The notes under the pieces: generated by a model
The model's database searches: none
Seen by the model: only the letters and a program-made list of their open reading frames with translations
What the model was told of the DNA's origin: nothing
Assembly: GCA_017355425.1 (NCBI GenBank)
Contig: CP070233.1
Span: 102,501 to 166,500 of the forward strand
Direction of reading: 5' to 3'
Length of the DNA: 64,000 bases
Source of the DNA: Dolichospermum sp. DET69
GTDB taxonomy: Bacteria; Cyanobacteriota; Cyanobacteriia; Cyanobacteriales; Nostocaceae
Translations under genes and position numbers: made by a program
Part shown: positions 31,442-38,091 of the stretch, piece after piece
Numbering within the stretch: the stretch's first letter is position 1
Layout of the letters: the number at the start of each line of letters is the position of its first letter

Positions 31442-32797
31442 ATGCCAGTCTCTATCACTATTTCCCAACTGGTTGAAGTTCTTATCGCTGAACCTGTAAA
31501 TCTATCTGCATCTACCTTAGCTCGTTCCAGTACCGGGATACAAACAGATACCCGAATTTTGCAACCGGGTGAAGTCTTTTTGGCTTTGCGAGGAGAAAAG
31601 TTTGACGGACATGATTTTGTGCCAACAGCGATCGCTCAAGGGGCTATAGTTGCCATAGTTGATCATGCTTATGAAAATCCTGGCTTTCCGGTTTTGCGGG
31701 TAAAAGATACACTAAAGGCATATCAGCAAATCGCTAAATGGTGGCGTGAAAGCTTTGATATTCCTGTGATTGGCATCACGGGTTCGGTAGGTAAAACTAC
31801 AACCAAAGAACTAATTTCGGCAGTTTTAGCTACCAAGGGAAAAGTTCATAAAACCTATGGAAATTTCAATAATGAAATTGGTGTTCCTAAAACCCTTTTA
31901 GAAATGGGTAGAGAAAAGGACTTTGCTGTCATCGAAATGGCCATGCGAGGCAGGGGACAAATTGCTGAACTGACAGAAATTGCGAGGCCGACAATTGGGG
32001 TAATTACCAATGTAGGGACTGCACATATTGAATTACTGGGTTCAGAGGAAGCGATCGCCCAAGCTAAGTGTGAATTATTAGCGACCATGCCAAATGACAG
32101 TATCGCCATCCTTAATCATGATAATCGCCTATTAATGGACACAGCCGCGAAATTTTGGCAAGGGAAAGTGATTAGTTATGGTTTTGATGGTGGGGATATC
32201 CAAGGAAAATTAACTGATCATGAAACTGTAGAAGTTGAGGGAATGCATCTACCTTTACCTTTACCCGGTCGTCATAATGCTACTAATTTTTTAGCGGCTT
32301 TAGCAGTAGCTAAGGTATTAGAAATTGATTGGCAATTATTGCAATCAGGTATCATTGTGAATATGCCTACAGGTAGAAGTCAACGCTTCACTTTAGCTAA
32401 TGATGTGGTGATTTTAGATGAAACCTATAATGCCGCCCCAGAAGCCATGTTGGCAGCTTTGCAGTTGTTAGCGGACACACCAGGAAAGCGGAAAATTGCT
32501 GTTTTAGGGGCAATGAAAGAATTAGGAGCAAGATCCCCGGAACTACATCAAAAAGTCGGGGAAATGGTCAAACATTTACATCTAGATGGGTTGTTGGTCT
32601 TAGTTGATGGTAAAGATGCGGAAATTATGGCTAATAGTGCCGATAATATATCTTGCGAATGTTTTACAAACCATGCTGATTTGGTAACAAGATTAAAAAC
32701 ATTTATGCAAACAGGCGATCGCTTATTATTCAAAGCAGCCCATTCCGTGGGATTAGATCGAGTTGTTAATCAACTACGGGTAGAATTTCCTAATTAG
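31442..32797 (+). CDS. murF: UDP-N-acetylmuramoyl-tripeptide--D-alanyl-D-alanine ligase
   Basis: A 451-residue Mur ligase that adds D-Ala-D-Ala to the peptidoglycan precursor in the cytosol. It shows the ATP-binding GITGSVGKTTTKEL, the family stretch KTYGNFNNEIGVP, ITNVGTAHIELLGS, and VILDETYNAAPEAM in the C-terminal domain. The stop is TAG 32795-32797. The last base of that codon belongs to an inserted MITE. The duplicated target downstream (TAATTA) implies the original stop was TAA at the same codon, so the protein is unchanged. Confidence 0.96.
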   Translation: MPVSITISQLVEVLIAEPVNLSASTLARSSTGIQTDTRILQPGEVFLALRGEKFDGHDFVPTAIAQGAIVAIVDHAYENPGFPVLRVKDTLKAYQQIAKWWRESFDIPVIGITGSVGKTTTKELISAVLATKGKVHKTYGNFNNEIGVPKTLLEMGREKDFAVIEMAMRGRGQIAELTEIARPTIGVITNVGTAHIELLGSEEAIAQAKCELLATMPNDSIAILNHDNRLLMDTAAKFWQGKVISYGFDGGDIQGKLTDHETVEVEGMHLPLPLPGRHNATNFLAALAVAKVLEIDWQLLQSGIIVNMPTGRSQRFTLANDVVILDETYNAAPEAMLAALQLLADTPGKRKIAVLGAMKELGARSPELHQKVGEMVKHLHLDGLLVLVDGKDAEIMANSADNISCECFTNHADLVTRLKTFMQTGDRLLFKAAHSVGLDRVVNQLRVEFPN

Positions 32798-33264: not shown

Positions 33265-35544
33265 CCCACATTCCGCACCCTTGACTGTCACAAACGGTGA
33301 TTACGGAGGTAAATTGATGAAGAAGGAGTAAAAGAATACATTGATATATAAAAAAACAAATTTTAGATAGGAAAATTGATTCAGATGTATTCTCAATAAG
33401 AAGCAATAAAGAATAAGGGTGGTTTCTGGCAAAAAATATAATATAATTTTATTGTTAGTCTATCAAGACTTAATCATAACTTATATCCTTCTAGAAATAA
33501 ACTTAAAAATAGCATTAAAACTTAAACTCATTAATAAAATTAATGAGTCAAATTGTATAATTAAACTATTAATAATGTTGATAAATCAACTTATATATCT
33601 GTAGTAATTACGGCAAGCTTCTGGGAGAAATAGAAGAATGTACTTCATTTCAGATGTTAAGTTATAAAAGTCTGTTTTTTGTTGAAAAGTAACAAGATGA
33701 ACTGATTGAAAACATTGAAATATCCACCGCATTGTTGGATTGTTGATGGCTTTGCCCAATTGATTTTTTACAGTATAGTTTAAGGATTTTAAAGCAGCCC
33801 TAATTTCTCTTTGTGCTAGAGTATAAACTAGCAGACATAACCCCATTATCATTGCTAATGCCTCTATTCTTTCTGGGCTTTTCAGGAAAATACTATCTGC
33901 TAAAAATAAAGGATTTTTGAGAAAACTAAATCCTCGTTCACAGGATTGCTGTGCTTTATATTCAGACAGCATTTTCTCTTTACTCAGTTCTTTTTCTGAT
34001 AAAACATTTGTGGCAATTATAAACCTTCCTGCACTTAATACTTCTTGGTCAATAGCATCTTTATTTTCAGCAACTGTTGCTAAGATTTGATAGCATTTTG
34101 ATTGATTTTCTTCTTTGATGTTAGGACTTTTTTCGATAACTTCGATATTTTCTACTTGATGATATTTAAATTCTTTACTTATTTTGATTAATTCTTTTCT
34201 AGCATCAGCAGCACAAGCAAATTTTTCTTGCAATAGGTTTTTTAACTTAGTTTGAGTATTAGTCAAAGCTTTTTCTATTTTCTTTGATAATTTCTTTAAG
34301 TCAGATTTTTTTCTATCTTGACTTTGCACAACTAACCATCTTTGTTCTATATCTCCATAAGTTATTTTCTTTTCGGCATAAGAATATCCTACTTTTTCAC
34401 TTTTAACAAATTCCGATTCTGCTAAACTCATCACTAAGTTTTTTGCTGATTTTATCGTTAAGGGTACTCTGGTTAACCATTTGAGACTCGACATTAACTT
34501 GATATTTGATTCTGTATATAATGCGCTATCTGCTACTATCAAACTATCAACTTGTATTCTTTTCTGATATTCAACTGCGATTTCTCCAAATTTTTTAGAA
34601 TCAACTTCATTCCCTGATACTGCTTTTATATATATTGGTATATCTCCATCTCCTGAACATACTAATTGTGTAATAAATTGTTTTAAATCTGGACGATGAT
34701 CTCTTGAATAACCATAGGTCAGCTTTATCGCTTGAGGTGATTGACTCTCTTCATTTTCTTTTTCCAATGAACCTGATTCTTTTTGATTTTTAAATATTAC
34801 TGATGGTAAACTATTTTCATATTCTCCATCTACATGAAATGATGTCGAATCCAAGTGTGATGATGAAAGTGATATCTGATATATTTTTACCGCATTTAAA
34901 CTGACTGCTAAAAATGTTGTATCTAGTCCTTTTATAAATAATTTATCTAATACTCTTCCCAGCTTATCATCGTTGAAATATTCTGGTTTTGCTCCTGCAC
35001 CAATTAAGTGTTCACAAGCGATTAATTCAAAGAATTTTGGGAACATATATAAAGGCTGTGACATCATGCTTAATCCATTTAAAATCATCGCCTTTACTAC
35101 CTGACCCGCACTGACTTTTTCTTCTGGTTCTGACCCTAGTAAATTATTAATTATTTCTACTATCCCAATTGAATCTACTATTCCTGCTACTATTCCTAAA
35201 TGGTCAATCTTCTTCAATTCAAGGTCTTTTATATTCAACATGACAACAGAAACTCCACAAAAGTATCTGTTTTGTATTTTCTCATTTTTCTGTTGAGTCA
35301 ACACATTTTTTTAGTTTTTTCATTGTCATTGAGGATAAACCTTTCAATGATTTTAAACTAAGTTTTCTATCAAAATAACCTAAGAACCAATAATTTCGTA
35401 CTTAGTCGTGAATATTTAACTGTATCTCTAACTTAATAGTAATAATTCCTATTTAGCTTTAACAAATCCTCTCAACATTTAGTTCTTATGTACTAAATAC
35501 ATCCGTTTGCTTGGGGTGTGACAGTTGTGGGTGCGGAATGTGGG
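33265..35544 (-). mobile_element. Complete IS1634-like insertion sequence (6-bp TSD ATAAAT)
   Basis: A 2280-bp element bounded by terminal inverted repeats CCCACATTCCGCACCC and GGGTGCGGAATGTGGG, extended inwards by CTGTCACA on both sides. ATAAAT at 33259-33264 and 35545-35550 is the target duplication. One transposase gene fills most of it. The intact ends, TSD and frame suggest a recent arrival. The flanking DNA is the tail of the murF intergenic region on one side and the precursor-peptide cluster on the other. Confidence 0.93.
33586..35241 (-). CDS. IS1634-family (IS4-like DDE) transposase
   Basis: A 551-residue transposase. The N-terminal region (KKIDHLGIVAGIVDSIGIVE) is the DUF4277 domain characteristic of this group. 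The DDE core includes HLDSTSFHVDGEY, a DSLIVADSALYTESNIK segment and the C-terminal SERGFSFLKNPLFLADSIFL-like part (here CERGFSFLKNP), containing the catalytic Glu. ATG 35241 is preferred, and the frame is open a further 21 codons. No frameshift, so it is potentially active. Confidence 0.93.
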   Translation of the reverse strand: MLNIKDLELKKIDHLGIVAGIVDSIGIVEIINNLLGSEPEEKVSAGQVVKAMILNGLSMMSQPLYMFPKFFELIACEHLIGAGAKPEYFNDDKLGRVLDKLFIKGLDTTFLAVSLNAVKIYQISLSSSHLDSTSFHVDGEYENSLPSVIFKNQKESGSLEKENEESQSPQAIKLTYGYSRDHRPDLKQFITQLVCSGDGDIPIYIKAVSGNEVDSKKFGEIAVEYQKRIQVDSLIVADSALYTESNIKLMSSLKWLTRVPLTIKSAKNLVMSLAESEFVKSEKVGYSYAEKKITYGDIEQRWLVVQSQDRKKSDLKKLSKKIEKALTNTQTKLKNLLQEKFACAADARKELIKISKEFKYHQVENIEVIEKSPNIKEENQSKCYQILATVAENKDAIDQEVLSAGRFIIATNVLSEKELSKEKMLSEYKAQQSCERGFSFLKNPLFLADSIFLKSPERIEALAMIMGLCLLVYTLAQREIRAALKSLNYTVKNQLGKAINNPTMRWIFQCFQSVHLVTFQQKTDFYNLTSEMKYILLFLPEACRNYYRYIS

Positions 35545-35709
35545 ATAAATAGCTAGACAAAAATATTTTAATTAAGTCTTATCTCTTAGTTTCAAAGCCT
35601 TGAACTTATAAATTATTTTTGAAAGAATAAAAACAAGGATTAGTCAATATCAAGTCTAATCTGATTTGTCTTTTATTGAGACAATACAATACATAAAAGA
35701 GGAATTATC

Positions 35710-35904
35710 ATGGCTAAGATTAAAATATCCGAACTACTTCCTGTAGGTTATGACTTATTGAATGATGCTCCTAGTTTTCTGAATGAATTAGCTACCGATG
35801 AAGTACAAAACGTTCTTGGTGGAGGTGGTGGCTGGGGACGTGGTGGCTGGGGAGGTGGAGGTTATGGCTGGGGAGGTCGTGGCTGTTGTTGCTGTTGTTG
35901 TTAA
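35710..35904 (+). CDS. Bacteriocin/RiPP-like precursor peptide 1, poly-Cys core
   Basis: A 64-residue peptide. Residues 1-37 form a leader (MAKIKISELLPVGYDLLND then SFLNELATDEVQNVLGG) with a double-glycine end like leaders cut by C39 peptidase-ABC exporters. The remaining 27 residues are Gly/Trp-rich with two Arg and one Tyr and finish in six consecutive cysteines. AGAGGAATTATC precedes the ATG. It shares its leader with two following genes. No cyclase, dehydrogenase or exporter gene is adjacent, so any modification must come from elsewhere. Metal binding by the Cys run is an alternative. Confidence 0.78.
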   Translation: MAKIKISELLPVGYDLLNDAPSFLNELATDEVQNVLGGGGGWGRGGWGGGGYGWGGRGCCCCCC

Positions 35905-35926
35905 TAGCTAAAAAAATAGCTATTAA
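35901..35926 (+). terminator. Hairpin over the end of precursor 1
   Basis: TTAATAGCTA and TAGCTATTAA form a perfect 10-bp stem around AAAAAA and overlap the stop codon. Similar AATAGCTGTTA stems follow precursor 2, so the hairpin was duplicated with the gene. There is no long T run, so attenuation or RNA stability is as likely as termination. Confidence 0.6.
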
Positions 35927-36040
35927 CTAGCAACTATAGTAATCCTAAATTATTCGTGAACAAAGAATTTAACTCTTGCAATATTCACAAATGAAATAGG
36001 ATTACTAGATTAAGACAATATATAACAAGGAGGAATTATC

Positions 36041-36232
36041 ATGGCTAATATCAAAATATCCGCACTACTTCCTGTAGGTTATGACTTATTTAATGATGCT
36101 GCTAGTTTTCTGAATGAATTAGCTACCGACGAAGTACAAAACGTTCTTGGTGGAGGTGGTGGCTGGGGATATGGTGGCTGGGGAGGTAACAGCGGATGTT
36201 ACAATCCCTGTTGCTGCTGGAGTTGTTGCTAA
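36041..36232 (+). CDS. Bacteriocin/RiPP-like precursor peptide 2, Gly/Trp/Cys core
   Basis: A 63-residue peptide with almost the same leader as precursor 1 (MANIKISALLPVGYDLFND then SFLNELATDEVQNVLGG). Its core of 26 residues keeps the GGGWGYGGWGG start but ends NSGCYNPCCCWSCC, giving six spaced cysteines. AAGGAGGAATTATC is a strong ribosome binding site, and the preceding 20 nt are also conserved among the three genes. The same-leader, different-core pattern is typical of RiPP precursors processed by a shared enzyme. Confidence 0.78.
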   Translation: MANIKISALLPVGYDLFNDAASFLNELATDEVQNVLGGGGGWGYGGWGGNSGCYNPCCCWSCC

Positions 36233-36240
36233 TTAAAAAA

Positions 36241-36319
36241 AATAGCTGTTAATCAAACTAACAGCTATTACCAATAGTCAGAATAGTAGTTTTTATTTTT
36301 TACTACTATTCTGACTATT
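36241..36319 (+). terminator. Double hairpin after precursor 2
   Basis: A first stem of AATAGCTGTTA and TAACAGCTATT (36241-36269) is followed by a second of 18 perfect base pairs (36273-36290 with 36302-36319) around a T-rich loop. The second hairpin recurs, with a 13-bp stem, after precursor 3 at 36671-36716. Confidence 0.75.
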
Positions 36320-36361
36320 AATTTATCTTTAATCAACACGATAGATAAAGGAGGAATTATC

Positions 36362-36634
36362 ATGGCTAATATCCAAATATCTGGACTCCTTCCCATAGGT
36401 TATGATTTATTTAATGATGATGCCAGTTTCCTTAATGAACTAGCTACCGAGGAATTACAAAATTTTGGTGCTGGTCACTATGGAGGTTTTAGTAGCGGTT
36501 TTAGTAGCGGTTTTAGTGGCAGTGTTAGTGGCAGTGTTAGTGGCAGTGTTAGTGGCAGTGTTAGTGGCAGTGTTAGTGGCAGTGTTAGTGGCAGTGGTAG
36601 TGGTAGTGTTAGTGGTAGTGGCTTCTGGTGTTAA
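36362..36634 (+). CDS. Bacteriocin/RiPP-like precursor peptide 3, Ser-Gly-Ser-Val repeat core
   Basis: A 90-residue peptide with the same leader family (MANIQISGLLPIGYDLFND then SFLNELATEELQN) but ending NFGAG rather than VLGG. The core starts HYGGFSSGFSSGFSG, continues with six SGSV units encoded by perfect 12-bp repeats (36515-36586), then SGSG/SGSV variants, and ends GFWC with a single cysteine. AAAGGAGGAATTATC precedes the ATG. The core is unlike precursors 1 and 2, so the module has been re-used with a new payload. The Ser/Gly repeat would be easily lengthened by slippage. Confidence 0.75.
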   Translation: MANIQISGLLPIGYDLFNDDASFLNELATEELQNFGAGHYGGFSSGFSSGFSGSVSGSVSGSVSGSVSGSVSGSVSGSGSGSVSGSGFWC

Positions 36635-36670
36635 AATTTAAAAAATAGCTGTTAATTAAAGGCTATTACA

Positions 36671-36716
36671 AATAGTCAGAATAATAATTTTTATTTTTAA
36701 TTCTATTCTGACTATT
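36671..36716 (+). terminator. Hairpin after precursor 3
   Basis: AATAGTCAGAATA and TATTCTGACTATT form a 13-bp stem with a T-rich loop, a shorter version of the hairpin after precursor 2. Confidence 0.7.
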
Positions 36717-36774
36717 TATAAAAAAGCTAAACACCGAGTTTTTGGTACTTTTGAAATTCTGACTTTTGTTGTAA

Positions 36775-37104
36775 TCACTTACCAAAAGAAAACAACTGTA
36801 GGGAATTTCTCCGTAACACAATTACCAAAAGATTAGTCACTAAACAGGTAACTGCTAGAGATAATAAAATATAAGTTGGTGGCATGACCACACCAATCAT
36901 AAACCAAGTATAAACGTGCAGCATCATGATACTAGCAAATGTACAAGCAAACCCTATAGATATCCACACCTGACCCATGGGACGATTTAGAAACGTGAGG
37001 ACAAGCGTTGATAAAGTTGCCAGAATATTGGCTGGAACAAGAAAGGCACAGATGCCTATACAATTGTTGTGGGAAAACTCAATTAAGGTGTTGAAATCTA
37101 ACAT
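36775..37104 (-). CDS. Small membrane protein of unknown function
   Basis: A 109-residue protein with about three hydrophobic helices (approximately 17-38, 45-66 and 75-98), a short acidic N-terminus (MLDFNTLIEFSHNNCIGICA) and a basic C-terminal tail. No domain recognised, although similar small proteins seem common in Nostocales. It is convergent with the precursor cluster. A link to peptide export or immunity would be speculation. Confidence 0.6.
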   Translation of the reverse strand: MLDFNTLIEFSHNNCIGICAFLVPANILATLSTLVLTFLNRPMGQVWISIGFACTFASIMMLHVYTWFMIGVVMPPTYILLSLAVTCLVTNLLVIVLRRNSLQLFSFGK

Positions 37105-37689: not shown

Positions 37690-38091
37690 TTAACCCATTA
37701 AAATTACCGTATCAATAACGTGAATCACGCCATTATCAGCATCAATATCCGCTGCTAAAACTGTAGCATTTTTCACTTCAAACCCATCATCACAATTAAT
37801 TTTAACAGGAGAACCTTCCACAGAAGTTACTGTACCAAGTTTTGCCAAATCAGCCTTTGTTAACTTGCCAGGTACAACGTGATAGGTTAATATCCGTGCT
37901 AACTGGGGAATATTTTGTAATAAAGTAGTAATTGTACCAGGGGGTAACTTGGCAAAAGCGTCGTCAGTTGGCGCAAATACAGTAAATGGGCCGGGACTTT
38001 TTAACGTTTCCACCAACCCAGCAGCGGACACAGCGGCCACTAAAGTTTTAAACGCATCATTACTAACTGCAATATCAACAATATCAGGCAT
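37690..38091 (-). CDS. Fasciclin (FAS1) domain protein
   Basis: A 133-residue protein made of one FAS1 domain: [23 protein letters not shown], here shown by [17 protein letters not shown] (H1 motif), [11 protein letters not shown] (the YH motif) and the end [14 protein letters not shown] (H2). FAS1 domains mediate adhesion. There is no signal peptide, as in many short cyanobacterial members, so location is uncertain. It is divergent from the PanE-like gene. Confidence 0.93.

Follow-up and report, generated by a model that had tools for sequence, protein, structure and literature searches.

Three precursor genes between conserved neighbors

We find three short genes in tandem in the window (the whole stretch of DNA analyzed here, 64,000 nucleotides of a 6.04-Mb genome in two contigs). 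All three lie on the forward strand, and each encodes a leader followed by a core. Precursor 1 (64 aa; 35710..35904, +) has a leader ending in EVQNVLGG and a core, GGGWGRGGWGGGGYGWGGRGCCCCCC, that closes with CCCCCC. Precursor 2 (63 aa; 36041..36232, +) has the same leader ending and six cysteines in its core, GGGWGYGGWGGNSGCYNPCCCWSCC. Precursor 3 (90 aa; 36362..36634, +) has a leader ending in LQNFGAG and an SGSV-repeat core that ends in GFWC and in which a 12-bp unit occurs about 11 times. The same sequence, AGGAATTATC, precedes each of the three open reading frames (ORFs).

As DNA, the modules are direct repeats of one another: Over 168 nt, copies 2 and 3 are 93% and 72% identical to copy 1. 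Within the leaders, genes 1 and 2 agree at 108 of 114 bases, genes 1 and 3 at 90 of 114, and genes 2 and 3 at 94 of 114. Upstream of gene 1, the promoter or 5′ untranslated region and ribosome-binding stretch (35550..35709, +) was aligned with that of 12 genus relatives; these 160 bases have a mean column identity of 85% (13 genus sequences, including that of the window). Hairpins follow every gene: those 3′ of gene 1, in a stretch that also holds the ribosome-binding region of gene 2 (35905..36040, +; RNA fold z = −4.44), two 3′ of precursor 2 (36233..36345, +; z = −9.03), and terminal hairpins between precursor 3 and a convergent 109-aa gene (36635..36740, +; z = −3.85). The folding of all three stretches beats 200 of 200 dinucleotide shuffles. 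Similar hairpin stretches were seen by eye 3′ of most of 20 aligned copies from the genus and G051, with none 3′ of G005, G014, G002b, and G051b.

ORFs, repeat alignment, and RNA folding agree with the original prediction of three modules that share an upstream sequence, near-identical leaders, and downstream hairpins, and that differ in their cores (CCCCCC, six-Cys, and SGSV). The predicted double-glycine leader end in two of the three is likewise present, in genes 1 and 2, with NFGAG in gene 3. The three genes are confirmed as real; they are more than chance ORFs, since the leader is matched in 15 of 16 genus genomes and evolves under purifying selection. The further claim that the cores are unrelated holds only in part: they are divergent, but cores 1 and 2 both start with GGGWGxGGWGG, and in composition each of the three fits the orthologous family described below.

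The Pfam model of the L_biotic_typeA leader scores genes 1 and 2 at 18.9 and 21.6 bits, just under its cutoff of 21.7, and does not match gene 3, for which Pfam returns only weak matches below cutoff (Gly-zipper and other families). Against NCBIfam, genes 1 and 2 have no match and gene 3 has two, far below cutoff. An Rfam reading of the locus was dropped, as each of its six matches lies under the gathering score.

The genes sit between two syntenic markers. Upstream is a gene that, from its sequence, we take to be murF (31442..32797, +), and downstream is TM109 (36775..37104, −), the membrane-protein-like gene of 109 aa, which has no Pfam match and is found in 213 of 217 family genomes. Across the window and 13 genus relatives, murF flanks the precursors in 14 of 14 loci, and in 12 of these TM109 lies on the opposite side; the contigs of the two other loci stop before reaching the TM109 position. 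Beyond TM109, the next neighbor in most relatives is a fasciclin-domain gene (37690..38091, −; PF02469 in a Pfam scan), a fasciclin-like gene being present in 10 of the 14 loci and a gene that, again from its sequence, we take to be KPR-like in 9. Between murF and the precursors, the window also holds a transposase-like gene of 572 aa (33586-35304, −; DUF4277 and DDE_Tnp_1). It looks recently inserted, because the distance from murF to the precursors is about 2.5 kb shorter in the 13 relatives than in the window.

The gene on the murF side was found by search in 14 of 16 genus genomes. In another, G011, a run of N fills the interval and the 3′ end of a His-rich core is visible at its edge, so we count the gene as probably present. 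The leader matches of G013 lie only at other loci and are class V–like copies; its contig ends 246 bases past TM109. A search of the family for the same leader, along the lines that the original prediction had proposed for other Nostocales, recovered it with different cores. With those of the window, the syntenic peptides number 32, from 27 genomes in seven genera, each adjoining murF and/or TM109. Eleven loci are on named public contigs (Dolichospermum, Anabaena, Aphanizomenon, Cuspidothrix, and one uncultured metagenome-assembled genome). The gene is usually single between murF and TM109; the window strain has three copies. No leader-family gene lies between the two markers in nine loci from other genera in which both were matched. 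Its presence in relatives and its absence from these nine loci suggest that the gene was gained at this position once or a few times and then retained.

As originally predicted, no modifying enzyme or C39 exporter is close by. None of the marker proteins for exporters and RiPP enzymes has a match anywhere in the 64-kb window (E = 1e-5), where only the four local syntenic markers match.

A constant leader and a changing core

The leader, of about 38 aa, is under purifying selection (pN/pS = 0.35, a value that covers the leader alone, since the cores do not align). Among 91 pairs of 14 genus members, each represented by one peptide, leaders have a mean identity of 0.82 and cores one of 0.37, where the baseline with one core of the pair shuffled once is 0.31. 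Thus, the cores keep their composition but hardly their residue order. The proposed pairing of a constant leader with a variable core is borne out by these values, and no strongly conserved core was found.

Core composition is narrow. Gly, His, Ser, and Tyr make up 72% of core residues in the 32 syntenic peptides, and typical cores are rich in these four and end in aromatics or Cys: The last three residues include an aromatic or Cys in 32 of 32. A [SG]C[HWY] motif occurs soon after the leader end in 17 of the 32. Two of the window cores swap His for Cys. His and Cys fractions are anticorrelated across the family (Spearman −0.48, P = 0.005, uncorrected for kinship), and genes 1 and 2, with no His and six Cys each, sit at the Cys end of this range. 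Ser and Thr are missing from the core of gene 1 and from those of two relatives, and the cores of genes 2 and 3 have both Ser and Cys.

Tandem repeats are present in 17 of the 32 cores, with periods of 3 to 36 bp that are multiples of 3. Repeats within the leader, with periods of 8 and 18, were seen in G006 and G014. Slippage or unequal exchange is thus the likely engine of core change.

Leader family and a candidate remote exporter

Searched family-wide, the leader occurs in 163 of 217 genomes. The window’s own genome carries four tandem leader-family precursors at C1:5.514 Mb, followed by an LxmK-like protein and a HopA1 protein, and the window leader is 44% identical to these precursors over 48 aa. 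HopA1 is matched at 210 bits (cutoff, 22.7). The LxmK-like protein, of the choline-kinase/APH type, reaches 83.6 bits against a cutoff of 315, and its relationship is therefore distant.

We sorted 145 leader-family peptides from 56 fetched loci solely by core composition; peptides with fewer than 10 core residues were dropped, and nine loci (L220-L228) are outside these counts. This separates 107 peptides with ordinary cores (23 loci) from 38 with low-complexity cores (33 loci). The residues AVILMTP account for 52.5% of ordinary cores versus 1.5% of low-complexity cores, and Thr is present in 98 of 107 versus 3 of 38. A LanK/HopA1 gene lies within 10 kb at 22 of the 23 ordinary-core loci versus 0 of the 33 low-complexity loci (Fisher P = 1e-14), and a CRP-C39 exporter at 18 of 23 versus 0 of 33 (Fisher P = 2e-10); the loci were chosen by leader similarity and are not independent, and low-complexity flanks are sometimes shorter than 10 kb owing to short contigs (e.g., L058, L060, L064, L114, L122, and L216). 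The 33 low-complexity loci represent four chromosomal positions, or six with L217-L219, which came from a low-complexity-core query. Counted by position, the comparison is 0 of 6 versus 22 of 23 (P = 1.5e-5), a value that mixes levels because the 23 ordinary-core loci are not collapsed to positions. With neither LanK/HopA1 nor CRP-C39 in the fetched flanks of any of the 33 low-complexity loci, the original suggestion of a modified (RiPP) product, or of a bacteriocin with antimicrobial activity, is unsupported. On the leader tree, the two core classes need four label changes (two to four over bootstrap trees, from few alignment columns), and a single origin is possible.

Solitary low-complexity leader-family genes also occur at five other chromosomal positions (L107, L116, L118, L124, L121, and L216-L219), with no enzyme or exporter markers in the available flanks. 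Two loci with LanK/HopA1 clusters (L211, 3320-3665, and L213) encode cores of alternating beta-branched residues (e.g., LLGITLTITVTITITITL), an odd lanthipeptide-type substrate. A putative radical-SAM-like gene, recognized from its sequence, lies near LxmK/HopA1, AKR, PpiC, and leader-family precursors in L066 (14844-16094) and has relatives in L125, L126, and L210.

The window’s genome holds eight C39 matches over cutoff, six of them strong, and one of these is a CRP-C39 of the leader-family type. It is a 906-aa exporter with an adjacent HlyD at C1:3.316 Mb, and some 3.2 Mb of the contig separates it from the window genes. A C39-bearing frame of 906 to 912 aa is present in 16 of 16 genus genomes. 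Seven of these genomes have HopA1 and C39 matches on a single contig, separated by about 6 kb, and were fetched for that reason. In all seven, the exporter is 88 to 91% identical to that of the window’s genome and is clustered with HlyD, PpiC, HopA1, and LxmK; a leader-family precursor with a strong score is also present in five of these clusters. The nine remaining genus genomes, the window’s own among them, have this exporter and HopA1 widely separated or on separate contigs, and G009 carries a second exporter (L066) next to HopA1. Since the exporter is clustered with HopA1 and LxmK in seven relatives, the window’s genome very probably encodes a leader-matched exporter at this distant site. 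The assignment draws on leader relatedness and on neighborhood in relatives, in a genome with five other good C39 matches. The genome-wide search agrees with the original view of an orphan locus that would lean on remote machinery.

Two further arrangements were observed in this genome. Its class V–like cluster is split in two halves 2.2 Mb apart, with the exporter and HlyD at 3.316 Mb (L008, 10253-14661) and the precursors, LxmK, and HopA1 at 5.514 Mb (L044, 6484-10840). On the plasmid-like contig C2 (200 kb), a LanM-sized gene with a LANC_like match (L048, 6263-9559) has as neighbors a C39 exporter and a small precursor with a GG motif.

Modification, export, and possible roles of the cores

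The genes might encode orphan RiPPs whose related leader is recognized in trans by the cell’s own LanK/HopA1 (class V–like) or LanM enzymes, which would form lanthionines from Ser and Cys. We consider this unlikely. On the premise that a required enzyme must occur wherever the gene occurs, we searched for YcaO (heterocycle, or TOMM, peptides), SPASM (radical-SAM cyclophane peptides), LANC_like, MNIO (Cys-modified peptides), and LanK/HopA1. YcaO is present in 8 of 16 genus genomes (the window’s genome has one, remote from the locus) and absent from 7 of the 14 in which the gene was found; SPASM is matched in 7 of 16, in the window’s genome at C1:1.08 Mb, away from the locus, and absent from 8 of the 14. 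LANC_like is missing from 12 of 16 genus genomes, present in 4, and absent from 11 of the 14, and MNIO (DUF692, PF05114) is found in 0 of 16. HopA1 is present in 16 of 16, so the argument from absence fails for this family, and modification in trans is possible for the Ser-bearing cores 2 and 3. The kinship of the leader with precursors of the same-genome LanK/HopA1 cluster points the same way, as do the two LANC_like frames (1092 and 1101 aa) that the window’s genome encodes and a stand-alone Prochlorococcus LanM that seems to serve remote clusters (PMC3140520). Yet there is no class V LanK/LanY (HopA1) beside a precursor in the 64-kb window or in the fetched flanks of the 33 low-complexity loci, and Thr is as rare in these cores as described above. 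Measured against class V, the leader is related, genes 2 and 3 carry both Ser and Cys, and the core of gene 1 offers neither Ser nor Thr. The window genes share the export logic of known GG-leader systems, with a GG (or GA) leader end, conserved acidic and hydrophobic positions, and a C39 exporter in the genome, yet they lack the neighborhood of class V genes. Patchy or absent enzymes and Ser/Thr-free cores thus favor peptides that are not enzymatically modified, contrary to the original prediction; disulfides or bound metal are possible.

Two other functions have been weighed for the peptides. If they were bacteriocins or other antimicrobials in an arms race, their Gly/Tyr/Trp/His-rich cores would hit competitors and diversifying selection would drive core change. 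A hypervariable core behind a constant leader at a fixed locus is what this would produce, and Gly-rich antimicrobial peptides of animals may resemble the cores in composition. Against it, core change resembles repeat turnover inside a fixed composition, and no dedicated immunity gene was seen next to the precursors; TM109 is not one, since it occurs throughout the family, also where no peptide adjoins it. We therefore rate an antimicrobial role as rather improbable. The cores could also be extracellular metal-handling peptides (for Cu, Zn, or Ni) that use His and Cys interchangeably as ligands. The inverse relation between His and Cys, with genes 1 and 2 as its His-free, Cys-rich extreme, is consistent with this, as is the presence of at least four His plus Cys residues in 29 of 32 syntenic cores. 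Only two such residues occur, however, in gene 3, G002b, and G058, and a non-syntenic low-complexity core (L216) has neither His nor Cys; dedicated metal handling appears quite unlikely to us.

The explanation that we favor, and to which we give an even chance, is that the genes encode GG-leader peptides that are exported in trans, are probably unmodified, and act as matrix, surface, or metal-binding peptides similar to EbfG. A remote C39 peptidase–ABC exporter would recognize the constant leader and cut after GG (after GA in gene 3); the likeliest candidate is the 906-aa CRP-C39 at C1:3.316 Mb, together with its HlyD partner. The released core of 25 to 53 aa, a low-complexity stretch of Gly, aromatics, His, and Cys, would probably be disordered and free of enzymatic modification. 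Its most likely role would be extracellular, that of a surface, matrix, or metal- or disulfide-crosslinking peptide. In-frame tandem repeats would allow fast core change; this strain has three copies, two with Cys replacing His.

A more specific form of this explanation is possible, though we hold it only tentatively: a nonenzymatic, low-complexity “sticker-and-spacer” secretome would have captured a leader of the lanthipeptide type. The genes would be solitary and would borrow a remote bacteriocin exporter, and the released Gly/Tyr/Trp/His/Cys peptides would condense or crosslink on the cell surface through metal, disulfide, or aromatic contacts. Composition rather than sequence would be conserved, with rapid, strain-specific turnover of in-frame minisatellites. 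Aromatics should be evenly spaced in a sticker-and-spacer polymer, and the tendency is only weak here: 9 of 37 cores fall below the 0.1 quantile and 2 above 0.9 (median, 0.34).

One leader family would accordingly have two fates, with enzyme-linked cores that are aliphatic and Thr-rich versus orphan low-complexity cores that are conserved in composition. Bloom-forming cyanobacteria appear to maintain a fixed, fast-evolving locus for secreted peptides that enzyme-first genome mining would miss. If the matrix or metal-binding role is true, many “orphan bacteriocin precursors” may belong to a structural secretome.

Among the titles and abstract openings returned by searches of the open-access PMC literature, none was seen to describe this locus. 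Precursors of the microcin B17 type, and others that form heterocycles, have a Gly/Ser/Cys-rich core behind a leader. The window-type gene differs from these in that half of the 14 genus genomes bearing it lack YcaO.

Closer parallels come from cyanobacteria. GG precursors with very little core conservation, and long CAP_ED-C39 exporters, have been described there, with group I clusters averaging 0.35 nearby precursors (PMC3140520), and class V candidates with LanK/LanY have been termed “type-B” LanA (PMC9486802). Judged via the LanK/HopA1 clusters found here, the window genes share with the “type-B” LanA and with the group I/II clusters the leader family, the GG motif, and the long-type CRP-C39 exporter. 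They differ in having no nearby enzyme or exporter and in cores that are nearly free of Thr and aliphatic residues.

EbfG1-4 of Synechococcus elongatus are GG/GA-leader peptides required for biofilm formation, and their efficient secretion depends on the peptidase-exporter PteB (PMC4997328). EbfG1-3 form amyloid, and EbfG4 is located both in the matrix and at the cell surface (PMC9981879). The locus numbers of ebfG4 and pteB are consecutive; in the window’s genome, by contrast, some 3.2 Mb of contig separates the genes from their proposed exporter, and the EbfG peptides quoted in these sources are not low-complexity sequences of Gly, His, Trp, and Cys. What the two systems have in common is small adjacent genes with GG/GA leaders and secretion aided by a C39 peptidase-exporter, which for the window peptides is predicted; the mature parts of EbfG are reported to have no homologs in other cyanobacteria (PMC4997328, PMC9981879).
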